In this document: positions 3,668 to 11,993 of the stretch, one piece after another
How positions within the stretch are numbered: the stretch's first letter is position 1
Layout of the letters: every line of letters starts with the position of its first letter
Assembly (NCBI GenBank): GCA_016342755.1
Contig: JAEINS010000025.1
Location: 1-64,000 of the forward strand
DNA from: Melioribacteraceae bacterium
GTDB lineage: Bacteria > Bacteroidota > Ignavibacteria > Ignavibacteriales > Melioribacteraceae
Direction: 5' to 3'
Length of the DNA: 64,000 nucleotides
Position numbers and translations under genes: made by a program
Notes under the pieces: generated by a model
The model's input: the letters and a program-made list of their open reading frames with translations, nothing else
Databases searched by the model: none
Told to the model about the DNA's origin: nothing

Positions 3668-5569
3668 TTATTTATTTATCTCTGTGTACCAGTCCGAAGA
3701 ATTTTCAAGAAGTTTATTTATTCTTCCAACAAGTTTATGAGGGTCTGTTAAATATCCTTCTAACAATAATGAAGACTCATATAGCTGCTCAACCACCGTT
3801 ATAATGTAATCATCTTCAGCATTCTTATTATAAATTTTTATTAGATTTCTAACAAGTTTATGGTTCTTATTTATTTCAAATATTTTTTTAGGAACTGAAG
3901 CATCTTTGTTCATCATCTGCATCATCTTTTGCATGCTTGCCGACATTGAATCATCAGGGTTAACCAAACACGCAGGACTATCTTTTAATCGCTTAGATTC
4001 CTTAACATCAGTAACTCTGTCGCCTAAAATATTCTGAATTCTTTTTAATAATTTATCAAATGATTTTTCATCATCTTTAGTCATTTCTTCAGATTTATCT
4101 TCAACTTTTTCACTTTCAAATTTATCAAGTTTCGAAAGATCAGCCTGATCAACAGATTTCAATTCAAATTCTTTATACTTAGGAACCGCACTTACAGCAA
4201 ACTCATCAACAGGTTCTAGGAAAAATAGTACTTCTATACCTTTTGTTTTGAAGATCTCTAAATGCGGATCAAGTTCCACAGCTTCTCTGCTGCTTCCGGC
4301 TAAATAATAAATTTCCTTCTGATCTTCTTTAGCATTCTCAATGTATTCATCGAATGATACAAGTCCTTTGGCATCTTCACATCTGGAAGAGTTAAATCTT
4401 AACAAGGCAGAATATTTTTCCTGATTTGCATAATCGCTGTAACCAAGCTTAAAGACTTTACCATGTTCGCGCCATAACTCAGCAAATTTCTCTTTGTCAT
4501 CTTTACTTAATTTCTCGAGATAATTTAACACTGTTGAAGTTACGCTTGAGGAAATTTTAGTGAATACAAGATTCTCCTGAAGAGTTTCGCGGGAAATATT
4601 TAGCGGAAGATCCTCAGAATCAACAACACCTTTAACAAAGCTTAAATACTCAGGAAGCAAGTCTTTATTTTTATGCTGAATTAAAACCCTGCGTACATAA
4701 AGGTCTAAACCATAATCATCTCTGTTAAAGCCAAACATATCCATGTTTTTCTTTGGTATAAACAATAAACTATTAAACTGAATTGGAGCATCAACTGATC
4801 TGTGAATAGTTTCCATAGGTTCAGTATAATCCAGAGTTAAAAATTTATAGAACTCATCATACTGTTCTTTTGTAACAGATGATTTAGGCTCTCTCCAGAT
4901 TGCAGAAACTGTATTAACAACTTCGTCTTCAACTTTAATAGGAAATGAAATAAAATTAGAGTGTGTTTTAATTATATGCTCAATTCTATGTTTATCGGCA
5001 AATTCTTTCTCTTCTTCTTTAAGAGTGATTATAACTTCCGTTCCGCGTTTTTTATCGGATTCAAGTTCAACCAGATCATAACTTCCCAAGCCGTCCGAAG
5101 TCCACATAACTGCTTTTTCATCTTTCTTAAAGGACTTAGTTTTAAGTGTAACCTCTGAAGCTATCATAAAAACTGAATAAAATCCTACACCAAACTTACC
5201 GATTATATTATTAGCATCTTCTTTGCTATCGGAAAGCTGTTTTATAAAATCAGCCGAGCCTGACTTAGCAATTGTACCAATATTCTTAACTATTTCTTCC
5301 GCGGTCATACCAATACCGGTATCAGTAATGGTTAAAGTACCTTTCTCTTTATCAAACGCTATTTTAATTTCTAAATCCTGATCATTATCAATAATCTCAG
5401 AACCTTTATTCGATTCGAACCTAAGTTTATCGAGAGCATCGGATGCATTAGAAACAAGTTCGCGCAAAAATATTTCTTTGTTTGTGTATAATGAGTGAAC
5501 AAGAATATTTAGAAGCTGTTTTACTTCAGCTTTAAACTCATGATGTCCTGAAAGATTTTCTTTACTCAT
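3668..5569 (-). CDS. htpG: Molecular chaperone HtpG (bacterial Hsp90)
   Basis: HtpG is a cytosolic homodimeric ATPase that helps client proteins fold, especially under stress. The 633-residue product has the family length. The GHKL ATP-binding domain (about 1-225) carries [38 protein letters not shown] and [12 protein letters not shown]. The middle domain contains [10 protein letters not shown] with the catalytic-loop arginine. The C-terminal domain carries dimerisation helices and the protein ends without an MEEVD tail, as expected for bacteria. The start at 5569 follows GGAGGAAAA exactly, so five extra codons upstream are rejected. A 106-base gap separates it from the upstream gene, leaving room for its own promoter; no CIRCE-like repeat was seen. 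Confidence 0.97.
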
Positions 5570-6763: not shown

Positions 6764-8411
6764 TAACAATCGACAGCATTTTGTTATACGCCTGATTATT
6801 ATTAAGCAGTTCCAGAGCAATTTTAAATTGTTTATCGTACTTTAACGATTCCTTTATTCTACCCTTTTTACCGTCAATTCTGGAAGCAACTTCTTTAACA
6901 ATTGAAGCAATAATAACATCTTTATTATTATTCAATTCTTCAGTTTTAACTTTATTAAATCTTTCTAAAAGATTTTCAATATCAGAAGTTAAATGCCCGT
7001 TATAACCTTCTTTTTTTATGGCAGTTTTTAGCTGCAAAACTAATTTCTCAGATTCTGATCTATATTCAAATTCCTGTGACTCCAGATATGTCATAAACTC
7101 AATAAATAATTTATCTTTATTTATTTCATCTAAAACAAGATTTTCGTGTGTATTAAAATAATAACTCGCAAATTGGAAAAACATTCCTTTAGCAAGTAAA
7201 TCCAAAATCTGATTAGATTCGGGTAAATTTGATACTAATGTGTCGGGCACAATTCCGCCGCCGGAATATACTACTCTGCTGTTTTCGGTTGTAAAAGTTG
7301 AATCTTCTTTAGTATACTTTTTATTAAAAATACTTTCCTTGTTAGAATAGTCAATCTTCTGAATACATCTTCCGCTAGGAGTGTAATATTTTGCTGTGGT
7401 AATTTTTAGCGATGTATTAAATGATAAAGGAATTACAGTCTGAACTAAACCTTTTCCAAACGATTTTCTGCCAACAACTATTCCTCTATCATGATCCTGA
7501 ATTGCTCCTGCAACAATTTCAGATGCTGAAGCTGAACCATTATCAACCAATATTGCTAACTTAGTATTACCGGCAATAGGCTCCTCATTTGAATATGAGT
7601 GTTTTACTTCGGTTGTATCACGTCCAATTACCGATACAATTAAATCACCTTTTTTTAGAAATTTTTCGCAAATATTAATTGCCGCGTCAAGTAATCCGCC
7701 CGGGTTGCCGCGTAAATCAAACACAACCGATTCAATTGATTTCTGCATGGCAAGTTCTTTTAAAGCTTTCCTTACTTCCTCTCCGGCTGTTCTGGAAAAT
7801 CCGCTTAATTTTAAGTATGCATTGTTAGAGTTTTCAGGTTCAAATCCGTAATAGGTTAAATTTTTAAGCTCAATCTCTTCACGAACAAGATTAAATATTA
7901 AATTATCAATTACACCTTCTCTTTTAATAGTTAATGTAACTGTTGTTCCCGGATCACCTTTTACAAAAGCACTAAGTTCATTATAATTTTCGCTATTTAG
8001 TTTTACAGAATCAATTCCCACAATTATATCGCCGACTCTTAAACCCTGCCTTTGAGCCGAATAACCTTCAATTAAGTCGATTATAGTTACCGATTCATCT
8101 CTTAAACCGATAGAAGCTCCAATACCGCCGTATTTCCCCCGTGTTATAACATCTATATCTTTCTGATGATTTTCGTCTATATAATTTGTGTACGGATCTA
8201 ACGATGATAACATTCCTTCTATTCCGGCCTGCATAAATTTTTCGGGATCAATATTATCAACATAATTAAGCATTATCTCTTTATAGACTCTGCCAAATAC
8301 ATCAATACTTTTAGAAAGTTTAAAATAAAAATCCGAATCGCTTTTTATAAATCCGCTAAATAAAACTAATATCAGTGGCAACAATAAATATTTATAACTT
8401 TTTCTACTCAT
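6756..8411 (-). CDS. ctpA: S41 family C-terminal processing peptidase (CtpA/Prc)
   Basis: This is a periplasmic serine protease that trims or degrades envelope proteins. The 551-residue product has an N-terminal signal anchor (YLLLPLILVLFSGF), a helical region, and a PDZ domain near residues 95-170 (GRYGGIG-like start here KYGGIGASIGLRD). An S41 catalytic domain follows, with the Ser motif DNGSASASEIVAGAI and the Lys motif GRKSFGKGLVQ. A ~150-residue C-terminal helical extension comes last. The start at 8411 sits one base after the tmk stop codon and follows a GGAAAAAA stretch. The run ybbR-tmk-ctpA-tauE is tightly packed, so co-transcription is likely. Confidence 0.92.
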   Translation of the reverse strand: MSRKSYKYLLLPLILVLFSGFIKSDSDFYFKLSKSIDVFGRVYKEIMLNYVDNIDPEKFMQAGIEGMLSSLDPYTNYIDENHQKDIDVITRGKYGGIGASIGLRDESVTIIDLIEGYSAQRQGLRVGDIIVGIDSVKLNSENYNELSAFVKGDPGTTVTLTIKREGVIDNLIFNLVREEIELKNLTYYGFEPENSNNAYLKLSGFSRTAGEEVRKALKELAMQKSIESVVFDLRGNPGGLLDAAINICEKFLKKGDLIVSVIGRDTTEVKHSYSNEEPIAGNTKLAILVDNGSASASEIVAGAIQDHDRGIVVGRKSFGKGLVQTVIPLSFNTSLKITTAKYYTPSGRCIQKIDYSNKESIFNKKYTKEDSTFTTENSRVVYSGGGIVPDTLVSNLPESNQILDLLAKGMFFQFASYYFNTHENLVLDEINKDKLFIEFMTYLESQEFEYRSESEKLVLQLKTAIKKEGYNGHLTSDIENLLERFNKVKTEELNNNKDVIIASIVKEVASRIDGKKGRIKESLKYDKQFKIALELLNNNQAYNKMLSIVSE

Positions 8412-9028: not shown

Positions 9029-9943
9029 TTAATTCTTTTTCTTAATTATATACTCTAGTTTATTGGGTTCAGTCCTTACAAGTGATGTAAAGGTGGGATA
9101 AATAATACGAGGTTGAATTGCACCTAATGAGTCATCAATAGCTTGCTTATAATTTATATATGCTGTTATACTTTCTTTTTCTAACTTGGAAAGTTTATTA
9201 ATTCCGCCTCTTAAAATCACATCTACAGTTGATGGATACAATTGAAGATATTGAAAATAGGGAACTCCTCTGGTCTCAACCGGAACATCTTCAAATGTTA
9301 AATCAATAATTTTTTCTACTTCAAATTGAAGCAATGTTTTATCTAGTGAATAATTTATATTATCAATTTGTTCTAACTCAAGATATTCTGATACAGATTT
9401 ATCAAGGTCTTCAAATTCTTTTAATATAGTACTAATAGAGTTTATCTTAGTTAATTCGTTTTTTGTACCTGATATTAAAATAGAATCGGGTACAATTTTA
9501 ATATCTGAAACAACTCCGTAACCAACTCTGTAACCCGGTAAAATATTTGGGAAAATCGGGACCAGTTTTGAATTTACTTTATCAACCTTAAAATTAATTC
9601 TTTCAGGCAGCATTTCAATTACCTGAATAGTTGAAGGTAATCGGGAATTACGGTCTAGTTCATCCCTCAAAAAAATTTCATGCCTGCCACTGTCATTTTT
9701 TGCAGAAATATCATAATTAAAATCCGGGCCCCAGACTAACTTGGCTAAATCCCATCCCTGACCCTTAACTCTGATAGTTATATCGGATGATGAAATACCG
9801 GCTATATCATAATTCTCTGGTACGTTTGATACTCTCACTTCAGGAGTAATAGTAGTTCTGTACTCTCCCGATAAGGAAATATACCCCCAAAGTAAAATTG
9901 AGAATAAACTTATTAATACTATTGAAATAACTTTTGACTTCAT
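9029..9943 (-). CDS. YbbR-like domain membrane protein (CdaR-like)
   Basis: This 304-residue protein has one N-terminal membrane helix (VISIVLISLFSILLWGYISLS) and then extracytoplasmic YbbR-like beta domains. Repeats such as VRVSNVPENYDIAG / ITIRVKGQGWDLA and a later PVETRGVPYFQ segment support this. In Firmicutes the related CdaR regulates the diadenylate cyclase CdaA; no cdaA gene is next to it here, so that role is uncertain. I selected the ATG at 9943 rather than a TTG 15 bases upstream because TTTCGGGT precedes it. The gene starts 12 bases after the terminator of the BMC unit. Confidence 0.8.
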   Translation of the reverse strand: MKSKVISIVLISLFSILLWGYISLSGEYRTTITPEVRVSNVPENYDIAGISSSDITIRVKGQGWDLAKLVWGPDFNYDISAKNDSGRHEIFLRDELDRNSRLPSTIQVIEMLPERINFKVDKVNSKLVPIFPNILPGYRVGYGVVSDIKIVPDSILISGTKNELTKINSISTILKEFEDLDKSVSEYLELEQIDNINYSLDKTLLQFEVEKIIDLTFEDVPVETRGVPYFQYLQLYPSTVDVILRGGINKLSKLEKESITAYINYKQAIDDSLGAIQPRIIYPTFTSLVRTEPNKLEYIIKKKN

Positions 9944-9954
9944 ACCCGAAAGAT

Positions 9955-9982
9955 ACAAAAAAACTCCACATTTGCGGAGTTT
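9955..9982 (-). terminator. Intrinsic terminator after the BMC gene pair
   Basis: On the minus strand, AAACTCC and GGAGTTT form a 7-bp stem with an 8-base loop, followed directly by a run of seven U residues in the transcript. It is 26 bases beyond the stop of the acidic BMC gene and would separate that unit from the ybbR-tmk operon. Confidence 0.75.
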
Positions 9983-10008: not shown

Positions 10009-11193
10009 TCATAAAGTACGGAAATGATCTAGCAGTTCATTTTTATTTGCTTTCGAAATATCCCGCCCTTTAATTGGAAAGTCTTCAATACTTCTTGCAA
10101 GTCTTCTTAAATCCGGTACACTCATTTTTTGCAATTCATCTAATGAAATCGAATTCAGATCCGTATCAATTATTTTTTCTTCACCTAAATCAGTTTCATC
10201 ATCTTCAATTGAATCAGAATCTTCAATATCTTCTTCATCAACTGATTCTTCTACAATTTCCTCCTCTGGTTCCTCAGTTTCCCCAATATCCTCTGTTTTT
10301 AAAATAGATACTAATTCTTCCTCAACAGGAATATCTTCCTCATCAATTTTTTCAATCGATCCTAAATCTTCAGATTTTTCAAACTCAGTCTCATTCTCAA
10401 TCTTTTCTTCTGAAGTTTCATTTAATTCAGAATTATCCCCAGAATCTTCCCGATTATGAATAATTTCCTCTTCCGCAATTTCCTCTTCAATAATAAGATC
10501 ACTTAGTTCTGTCTCTTCCGGTATTTCACCGGCTTCATCCTCAGTACTCAATTGAGTAATAATTTCTTCATCTTCGTCAAGAACTTCATCAATAATATCA
10601 TTTACAAATCCATCATCAGGTTTTGTATCAGATTTCGCGTCATCAATGTTTTCTTCTATCGCCTCATTAAAATCATTATCAAAAAGAGACGGAATTGAAT
10701 TTTCTTCCTTTTTAACAGTCTTGGGTTTTACAGCAGGTATTGTGGTAAATTTAGATTCATCAAGTTCTTCTTCAAAATTATTTTCTTCTTCCGCAGAATC
10801 TTCTTCAGGAGATTTTATCTCTGTTATCTCTTCATCAGATTCAGTTTCATTATCATTAATTTCTTCAATAATATCAGAAGCAATTTCTTTAATATCTTTT
10901 TTTAGAGGAGCCCAAACCTTTTTTTTGTTTTCAATTAATCCTTTTAGATCATCATGAGGACGAGGTATAATATGTGCCGATACTAGCTGCCCGACTCTTT
11001 TAGCCGCAGCAGAACCAGCATCTAAAGCCGCTTTAACGGCTGCAACTTCACCAGTAATTTTAATTGTAATAAGGGCTGCAGAACTTTTTTCTCTGCTGAC
11101 TATTTTTATATCAGCTGCTTTAGCCATAGCATCAGCAGCTTCAATAGCACTAATCAACCCTTTGGTTTCAATTAATCCAAGAGCTTCATTCAT
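10009..11193 (-). CDS. BMC-domain shell protein with long acidic tail and Rho-N/SAP-like C-terminus
   Basis: Residues 1-92 form a BMC (Pfam 00936) domain: EALGLIETKGLISAIEAADA, AALDAGSAAAKRVG and HIIPRPHDDL all match hexamer-forming shell proteins. The pore-loop segment reads KSSAAL instead of the usual glycine-rich loop. Residues ~95-345 are an extreme Glu/Asp-rich, probably disordered region. The last ~45 residues (SLDELQKMSVPDLRRLARS, then KANKNELLDHFRTL) resemble the Rho N-terminal / SAP helical fold that often binds nucleic acid; this is pattern recognition only. The gene begins 8 bases after the canonical BMC gene and lacks a good ribosome binding site, so it may be translated at lower level by coupling. 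The closest analogy I know is EutK, a shell protein with a C-terminal nucleic-acid-binding-like domain. Confidence 0.85.
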   Translation of the reverse strand: MNEALGLIETKGLISAIEAADAMAKAADIKIVSREKSSAALITIKITGEVAAVKAALDAGSAAAKRVGQLVSAHIIPRPHDDLKGLIENKKKVWAPLKKDIKEIASDIIEEINDNETESDEEITEIKSPEEDSAEEENNFEEELDESKFTTIPAVKPKTVKKEENSIPSLFDNDFNEAIEENIDDAKSDTKPDDGFVNDIIDEVLDEDEEIITQLSTEDEAGEIPEETELSDLIIEEEIAEEEIIHNREDSGDNSELNETSEEKIENETEFEKSEDLGSIEKIDEEDIPVEEELVSILKTEDIGETEEPEEEIVEESVDEEDIEDSDSIEDDETDLGEEKIIDTDLNSISLDELQKMSVPDLRRLARSIEDFPIKGRDISKANKNELLDHFRTL

Positions 11194-11201
11194 AAAATAT
11201 A

Positions 11202-11480
11202 TTAAGCGCGTTTTGGAAGAATTGTTTCTACGTCTGTATGCGGACGTGGAATAACATGTACTGATACAAGTTCACCAACTCTTTGTGCAGCGGCTGCACC
11301 AGCATCTGTTGCTGCTTTTACTGCACCAACGTCTCCCCTAACCATTACAGTTACGAATCCGCCGCCAATTGTTTCTTTTCCTATAAGTTCAACTTTTGCT
11401 GCTTTTACCATAGCATCCGCAGCTTCTACAGCACCAACCAAGCCTTTGGTTTCTATCATTCCAAGTGCGTCTAAAGTCAT
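11202..11480 (-). CDS. Bacterial microcompartment shell protein, hexameric BMC-H type
   Basis: The 92-residue product is a classic single-domain BMC-H protein of the PduA/EutM/RmmH type. It begins [20 protein letters not shown], has the pore loop KETIGGGF, and ends with [16 protein letters not shown]. Such proteins form flat hexamers that tile the shell of metabolosomes and carboxysomes, with the central pore admitting small metabolites. GGAG lies 7 bases before the ATG. It is the first gene of a two-gene unit. No pentamer (BMC-P), trimer (BMC-T), aldehyde dehydrogenase or signature enzyme gene occurs in this window, so it would be a satellite shell locus. Confidence 0.96.
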
Positions 11481-11570: not shown

Positions 11571-11993
11571 TTACAATAACTTTTCCCTTAAATACTCTTC
11601 CAGAATAACGGCGGCGGCATTTTTATCAATTATGCCTTTATCGCGTCTTTTCTTTTTAGAAACAACCGATGCAATTACTCTTTCTTTAGCAATTGAAGAA
11701 GAATATCTTTCATCAACAAAAACCACTTGCTGCGATATTTTTTTCTCAAGTTCGTTTTTAAATTCTATTACATCGTCTGTTATATGCGATTTCTCGCCGT
11801 TTTCTCTTAATGGATATCCTAAAACTACTTCACAAACTTCATAATCAGAAAAAAGTTTTAAGAGATTTATCCAAAATCTATCATCATTTTTTAATGTGAT
11901 TAATGGAGACGCAAACATTTTAAGCGGATCGGTTATAGCAATACCAACTCTTTTTAATCCATAATCTATTGCTAAAATTCTTTCTTCTTTCAC
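11571..11993 (-). CDS. ruvX: Holliday junction resolvase-like RuvX (YqgF)
   Basis: RuvX/YqgF proteins have an RNase H fold and act on pre-16S rRNA 5' ends and/or Holliday junctions. The 140-residue length is normal. The N-terminal motif ILAIDYGLKRVGIAITDP carries the first catalytic Asp, VVLGYPLRENGEKS the second acidic region, and FVDERYSSSIAKE the third; KNAAAVILEEYL near the end supplies the last acidic position. The start codon is GTG, 4 bases after the relA/spoT stop, so it is translated with that gene. Confidence 0.93.
   Translation of the reverse strand: MKEERILAIDYGLKRVGIAITDPLKMFASPLITLKNDDRFWINLLKLFSDYEVCEVVLGYPLRENGEKSHITDDVIEFKNELEKKISQQVVFVDERYSSSIAKERVIASVVSKKKRRDKGIIDKNAAAVILEEYLREKLL

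Follow-up and report, generated by a model that had tools for sequence, protein, structure and literature searches.

In the window, which is the whole stretch of 64,000 nucleotides that was analysed, a gene on the minus strand encodes a protein of 394 aa with an N-terminal BMC domain, a long acidic linker and a small C-terminal module. It lies between a plain BMC-H gene and a YbbR-like gene on the same strand. The features at this locus are as follows.

9029..9958, minus strand: YbbR-like gene, directly downstream of the module gene with a gap of fifty bases; members of the family in its cluster match PF07949.
10009..11193 (stop codon included), minus strand: BMC–linker–Rho_N/SAP-like gene, 394 aa; an ORF with an ATG start, with the same gene in relatives.
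10012..10155, minus strand: predicted C-terminal Rho_N/SAP-like module, approximately residues 347-394; based on the module profile (E 2.9e-24), Pfam Rho_N and an AF2 model.
10156..10941, minus strand: acidic low-complexity linker, approximately residues 85-346; defined by composition, with an SLFD motif at residue 169.
10957..11184, minus strand: BMC domain, the shell-tile part, residues 4-79; Pfam PF00936, with the edge motifs KAAD and PRPH read.
11202..11480, minus strand: plain BMC-H (92 aa), which precedes the module gene by 8 bases; Pfam BMC E 1e-29.
11571..11993, minus strand: ruvX/yqgF-like gene, part of the upstream context; named by reading only.

The ORF that a preliminary description of this DNA had placed at 10009-11193 is real. 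No strand was given there, and the gene is on the minus strand; the plus strand over the same interval has stops throughout. A Pfam scan of the full protein locates the BMC domain, previously assigned to the first 92 residues, at residues 4-79 (87.5 bits, E 5.9e-25, cut-off 24.5), and in a profile search of the bacterium's own genome the same domain scores 91.5 bits. A single BMC domain that exceeds the curated threshold places the protein in BMC-H (PF00936). Its edge motifs are KAAD, which is one letter off, and PRPH. The adjacent 92-aa BMC-H matches the NCBIfam EutM model with 138.3 bits, above the cut-off of 133.

The BMC genes of the genome containing the window are found at several locations, namely the window pair on one contig (C35), a tandem BMC-T on another (C14) and three BMC-P, identified as PF03319 matches, at two places on a third (C28). 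In the sections of Sutter et al. 2021 (PMC8217296) that deal with them, FRAG BMCs are described as having a BMC-P triplet and shell genes spread over as many as six places, with most of their genes remote from known enzymes; Ignavibacteriae are among their hosts and their function is unknown. Scattered shell genes, the BMC-P triplet and the host group are all shared with the genome examined here, which fits the FRAG BMC type. However, while C-terminal extensions on BMC-H are noted in those sections, a Rho_N/SAP module on them is not. For Melioribacter roseus, seven BMC-P in five loci have been listed (Axen et al. 2014, PMC4207490). The neighbours of the shell genes in the own genome are, by reading, housekeeping genes, except for a PduS-like (RnfC-like) gene that adjoins the only BMC-T gene (C14, L008:8754-10630; names by reading) and may be a hint at redox chemistry in FRAG BMCs. 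One of the BMC-P lies directly upstream of a gene that was read as dprA-like (C28, L041:988-1263 and 1278-2393).

The distribution of the module was examined in two sets of genomes. Among 97 related genomes, a BMC domain was found in 92, BMC-P in 84 and the module in 88. BMC-P and the module occur together in 80, BMC-P alone in four (G021, G054, G065 and G076) and the module without BMC-P in eight, and five genomes (G053, G057, G080, G090 and G096) contain neither a BMC domain nor the module. In a draw of 395 genomes from the phylum, 76 have the module, 74 have BMC-P and 80 have a BMC domain; the module is present in 72/74 genomes with BMC-P and in 4/321 without, counts that are not independent, as the genomes are related and the 97 relatives overlap this draw. 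Every module-bearing genome in either set has a single copy. In this phylum the module accompanies BMC-P almost without exception, as a single copy.

Loci were also read individually. In all 30 of those with the best BMC matches among the 97 relatives, a short BMC-H is accompanied by a longer BMC protein that ends in the module. A further 40 loci were chosen by place, and the module ORF was found in 39, the remaining locus being truncated where its contig stops. Reading these 39 ORFs showed an N-terminal BMC domain, either plain or diverged, in 38. The N-terminal part encoded at L078 (genome G283) may be a far-diverged BMC domain. With the module shared by 30/30 loci, 88/97 relatives and 76/395 genomes, the C-terminal feature goes beyond chance, and a survey of the kind suggested in the preliminary description finds the combination of BMC domain and module conserved.

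Two genomes in the phylum draw, G315 and G403, have BMC-P and lack the module. G403 is 81 % complete and no BMC domain was found in it. G315 (L171 and L178) has seven BMC matches, five of them on one contig, and represents a different BMC arrangement in the same class. A BMC domain without the module was found in G155, G208, G315, G342 and G450. Three of these belong to genus g146 (L173 in G450, L174 in G342 and L175 in G208), where only plain BMC-H of 89-106 aa are present, with neither BMC-P nor the module; there is one BMC match per genome, and a second in G450, whose assembly shows 13 % contamination. Here too, a BMC-domain protein occurs in the absence of pentamers. A contig scan with the whole protein found two loci with BMC-H (L009 and L010), with no module in the ORFs read. 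L009 contains two BMC-H-like ORFs (3751-4041 and 7983-8270) and is on a chromosome filed as Candidatus Heimdallarchaeota.

The module is about 48 residues long in the window protein (residues 347-394). The consensus is x-L-x-x-M-T-V-x-E-L-R-x-L-A-R-x5-P-I-x-G-R-E-I-S-R-A-N-K-x-x-L, and in an alignment of 42 diverse rows the positions V, L, R, A, R, G and R are invariant. The loop between the helices is strongly conserved and includes the invariant G-R. From residue 356 on, the window module has a net charge of +3, and among 83 members the charge is above zero for the module in 82 and for its 35-residue core in 79.

The Pfam scan of the full window protein lists neither Rho_N (PF07498) nor SAP (PF02037) at E≤1, and a PF07498 search of the own genome found matches elsewhere (contig C23), with the window module not among them. 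When the last 45-52 aa were scanned in isolation, Rho_N was the best Pfam family (15.9-16.4 bits, E 0.009-0.013), below its cut-off of 24.9. Each of the 42 diverse modules was scanned against Pfam, and Rho_N was found at E≤0.1 in 23 (best 1.2e-5), SAP was second with 15 and the next family was found in two. For ten modules scanned with scores, Rho_N was listed for seven and absent for three, and two, both from distant relatives, passed the cut-off (25.6 and 25.0 bits). An hhalign comparison of the module with 30 Rho N-termini of relatives gave a score of 11.4 (E 0.029, probability only 0.9 %), which is above all 30 column shuffles (best 6.9). The alignment is collinear, with approximately five extra residues in the module.

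An AF2 model of residues 338-394, made from the single sequence, has three helices and a pLDDT of 72.4. The best Foldseek match in the PDB was Rho, at a non-significant E of 3.2. After structural realignment, Rho residues 1-41 took the first four places (Z 4.5-4.9; rmsd 1.4-1.6 across 41 residues), and the SAP domains of FAN1, Tho1 and MKL1 ranked below Rho. Under the rule applied, rows no more than 1 Z apart are tied and Z <8 can reflect a common arrangement, and lysyl-tRNA synthetase (Z 4.3, rmsd 4.0) and TFIID (Z 4.3, rmsd 1.9) tie with Rho. A PDB sequence search using the module profile recovered 16 sequences at E≤10, the best being fumarate hydratase (E 0.035), and none was useful.

Each of these lines is weak singly; in combination, a Rho_N/SAP-type fold is likely for the C-terminal module. 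The Rho_N/SAP-like module named in the preliminary description is thus probably what is present, with Rho_N and SAP profile matches across the family, a model that ranks Rho first and conserved relatives in 88 of the 97 genomes. Profile search and structure prediction, both suggested there, gave mixed results. Two distant members pass the Rho_N cut-off but the window module does not (16.4 versus 24.9 bits), and Rho residues 1-41 rank first (Z 4.9) but are tied with unrelated rows. The helix, loop, helix pattern is that of Rho_N and SAP, and the model can be superposed on Rho residues 1-41. However, the extra residues lie in and after the inter-helix loop, the region with the invariant G-R, and the module is fused to a BMC domain. 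From the fold class, nucleic-acid binding is the most likely prediction for the module, and among the sequence features it is the net positive charge in 82/83 members that bears on it.

Two known shell proteins resemble the window protein. EutK consists of a BMC-H domain and a C-terminal domain that has been suggested to bind nucleotides and to act like ParB, and its loss leaves Eut compartments polar and more static, according to the passages on EutK in PMC12487888. The preliminary description had cited EutK as a partial precedent, and it is the right one. However, the NCBIfam EutK model matches the window protein at model positions 1-94 of 166 only, scoring 81.4 bits against a cut-off of 218, and the protein is not a whole-length EutK. 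The window module is Rho_N/SAP-like, is carried on a long linker and is found in a system with scattered shell genes. No eut genes were recognised among the neighbours read. In concept the protein follows EutK by pairing BMC-H with an end domain, but that domain apparently has another fold. PduK, a minor component of its shell, has a C-terminal extension that is placed on the concave, cytosol-facing side; it is needed for the distribution of Pdu compartments, which remain at the poles without it (PMC9132943). The PduK extension, however, is described as flexible (PMC9132943) or disordered (PMC12487888) and of unknown function, and the passages concerned mention no Rho_N/SAP module. In the open-access literature, no paper was found that joins a microcompartment with Rho termination factor, and a search that paired microcompartment with SAP domain found unrelated titles only.

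We propose, at a probability of roughly 45 %, that the protein is a specialised FRAG shell tile that displays a nucleic-acid-binding module toward the cytosol and probably positions the organelle, as EutK and PduK do. The BMC domain would sit in the hexagonal facet layer beside the plain BMC-H. Judging from papers on other BMC-H proteins, the concave face of the tile should be turned to the cytosol and the C-terminus should exit there, where a flexible linker would hold out the small basic module with its likely Rho_N/SAP fold. Given that fold, the module may grip nucleic acid, either nucleoid DNA or RNA, from outside the shell, and by analogy with what has been proposed for EutK and PduK this grip could tether or space the organelle. 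One point against this reading is that eight genomes without BMC-P keep the protein, which positioning of a shell alone does not explain.

The module might instead be a protein-docking device, with a positioning ATPase, a cargo enzyme or the YbbR-like neighbour as its partner, rather than a nucleic-acid binder. We consider this unlikely, though it is a serious candidate. The module profile matches only once in the own genome, even at E≤10, and that match is the module protein itself; a single occurrence confined to a BMC protein is also what would be expected of a docking module dedicated to BMCs. The conserved loop with its invariant G-R (42 rows) may likewise point to a specific partner. In 34 of the 46 loci, out of 61, that were readable for this count, the YbbR-like gene lies next downstream of the module gene on the same strand (L131 and L132 do not contain the module gene, and the remaining unreadable loci were truncated or masked by overlapping ORFs), and it is kept in distant families in which the neighbourhood is otherwise different. 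However, the best fold and profile matches are to domains associated with nucleic acids, and the module is net positive in 82/83 members. In addition, ybbR is independent of the module protein, because ruvX lies directly upstream of ybbR in four genomes that have no BMC genes. The pair formed by the module gene and BMC-H can be cleanly absent between ruvX and ybbR. By reading, the other near neighbours (tmk, ruvX and spoT) are housekeeping genes.

Across both draws, nine genomes contain the module and no BMC-P. One of these, G051, was left out, as it is 87 % complete, its BMC score is ordinary and an assembly gap is likely. The eight that were kept (G007, G017, G041, G062, G069, G088, G091 and G283) belong to seven genera. 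G069 consists of one contig and is 99 % complete, making an assembly gap unlikely. A search with PF00936 found no BMC-T in any of the eight. There is a single PF00936 match, the module protein itself, in G017, G041 and G062, two matches (BMC-H and the module protein) in each of G007, G069, G088 and G091, and none in G283.

For these genomes to fit the shell-positioning reading, the protein would need a second role, and a further reading is therefore kept open. The protein may not be primarily a shell part; six copies would form a hexamer base of BMC domains topped by their Rho_N/SAP heads, giving a nucleic-acid-binding ring that is free-standing but also joins shells where they are present. 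We regard this as rather improbable. The retention in eight genomes from seven genera speaks for it, as does the fact that the module protein provides the sole BMC-domain match in three of them (in G041 from a gene split over two contigs). The inter-hexamer edge motif, I-P/A-R/Q-P, is also absent from 7/7 proteins that come from BMC-P-free genomes and have a whole N-terminal domain, and present in 67/74 proteins from genomes with BMC-P, a count that covers 81 of the 83 members (G041 and G094 were omitted owing to contig ends, and G046 has no whole ORF). The seven exceptions with BMC-P are three from genus g37 (G058, G087 and G093) and four that show K or N in the motif. The G041 protein, when pieced together from two contigs, also lacks the motif. 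However, the association with BMC-P is very strong (72/74 versus 4/321). In addition, genus g47, to which G069 belongs, also contains two of the five relatives without BMC domain and module, and g18, the genus of G017 and G041, contains one; for this reason the module protein without BMC-P could be a stage toward loss.

Six proteins from BMC-P-free genomes have BMC scores of 52-109. The others score 123-152, except for the g37 trio (101-103) and G094, whose gene runs into a contig end. For the module, the corresponding ranges are 73-84 and 64-101. Both comparisons cover the 51 of the 97 relatives for which the sequence was read and favour the others, as the profiles were built without the BMC-P-free genomes. 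For G017 and G041, the BMC domain gives a dN/dS ratio of 0.16 (bootstrap 0.07-0.32) and the module one of 0.09 (0.04-0.28; 351/500 resamples usable). Both domains are under purifying selection in genus g18, the sole BMC-P-free genus so compared, and this also favours a free-standing ring. The g37 trio have one BMC-P each, apparently from another BMC locus, and their three pairs give ratios of 0.02-0.04 for the BMC domain and 0.12-0.23 for the module, with the module evolving faster than the BMC domain, contrary to expectation. The low ratios in the trio and those for G017/G041 disfavour a pseudogene or decaying relic in the BMC-P-free genomes. Against the ring stand five deeper comparisons, in which the ratio for the BMC domain is 0.41-0.79 and the module is saturated, leaving room for weaker constraint on the BMC domain after the loss of BMC-P.

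A quick tree of 25 genomes, built from three neighbour proteins, also bears on this reading and supports it. The BMC-P state changes at least six times on the tree, with four of the changes forced by well-supported branches; scoring the g37 trio as a loss of the FRAG set gives five changes. It is doubtful, though conceivable, that the BMC fold has been reused in this way, as the hexamer base of a free-standing six-headed nucleic-acid binder that selection has maintained in five or six lineages since their loss of BMC-P and BMC-T.

The acidic tail of approximately 250 residues reported earlier is present, as the window linker is 257-276 aa long depending on the cut used, with D+E 40 % and a net charge of -87 to -88. 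Across the 83 members, the linker ranges from 17 to 342 aa and from -88 to +12 in net charge (median -6). It is zero or positive in 20 members, and the window linker is the most acidic of all 83. The strong acidity of the window linker is a local extreme. In genus g18 (L073:3087-4322, L114 and L176), the linker has expanded into repeats of an acidic unit, and the gene in G041 is broken by a contig end inside such repeats. Two patterns, both picked after inspecting the sequences, recur in the 51 linkers of the order. The first, I-x-R-L-R-x-E-A-L, is helix-like and was found in 29/51 (at most 2 in 200 shuffles), and the second, LF followed by D/E/T/S/A/N, was found in 30/51 (at most 11 in 200 shuffles). 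These recurrent motifs resemble short binding peptides. The window linker has the second, as SLFD at residue 169, and lacks the first.

The recurrence of the first motif would agree with a tail that is a luminal assembly element and recruits enzymes, its linker helix playing the part of an encapsulation peptide. This is quite improbable, as that motif is missing from the window linker, the concave face of BMC shell proteins is turned toward the cytosol according to the relevant text of PMC10902431, and the PduK extension is on the cytosolic side (PMC9132943). It is very improbable that the long acidic tail is itself the active part, repelling or mimicking nucleic acid or condensing or tethering cargo, much as the preliminary description had suggested it could be; a net charge of -88 over 276 residues in the window agrees with such a role, but wide variation across the 83 members, with linkers that are zero or positive in 20/83 and, by the cut used, as short as 17 aa with the module still there, shows that neither length nor charge is conserved and leaves a function of the polyanionic tail unsupported.

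The preferred reading remains that of a FRAG shell tile with a module that probably binds nucleic acid and positions the organelle. FRAG BMCs have no known function and no telling gene neighbourhood, and a near-constant, single-copy tile provides a marker for them in the phylum. The module tile is a near-constant part of this unexplained class of BMC and offers an experimental handle on it. If the module binds nucleic acid, the protein would join EutK as a second, differently built shell protein that connects metabolosome and nucleoid, and metabolosome positioning would become a testable question. If the protein survives without the rest of the shell, it would show that BMC-domain proteins can act outside compartments.
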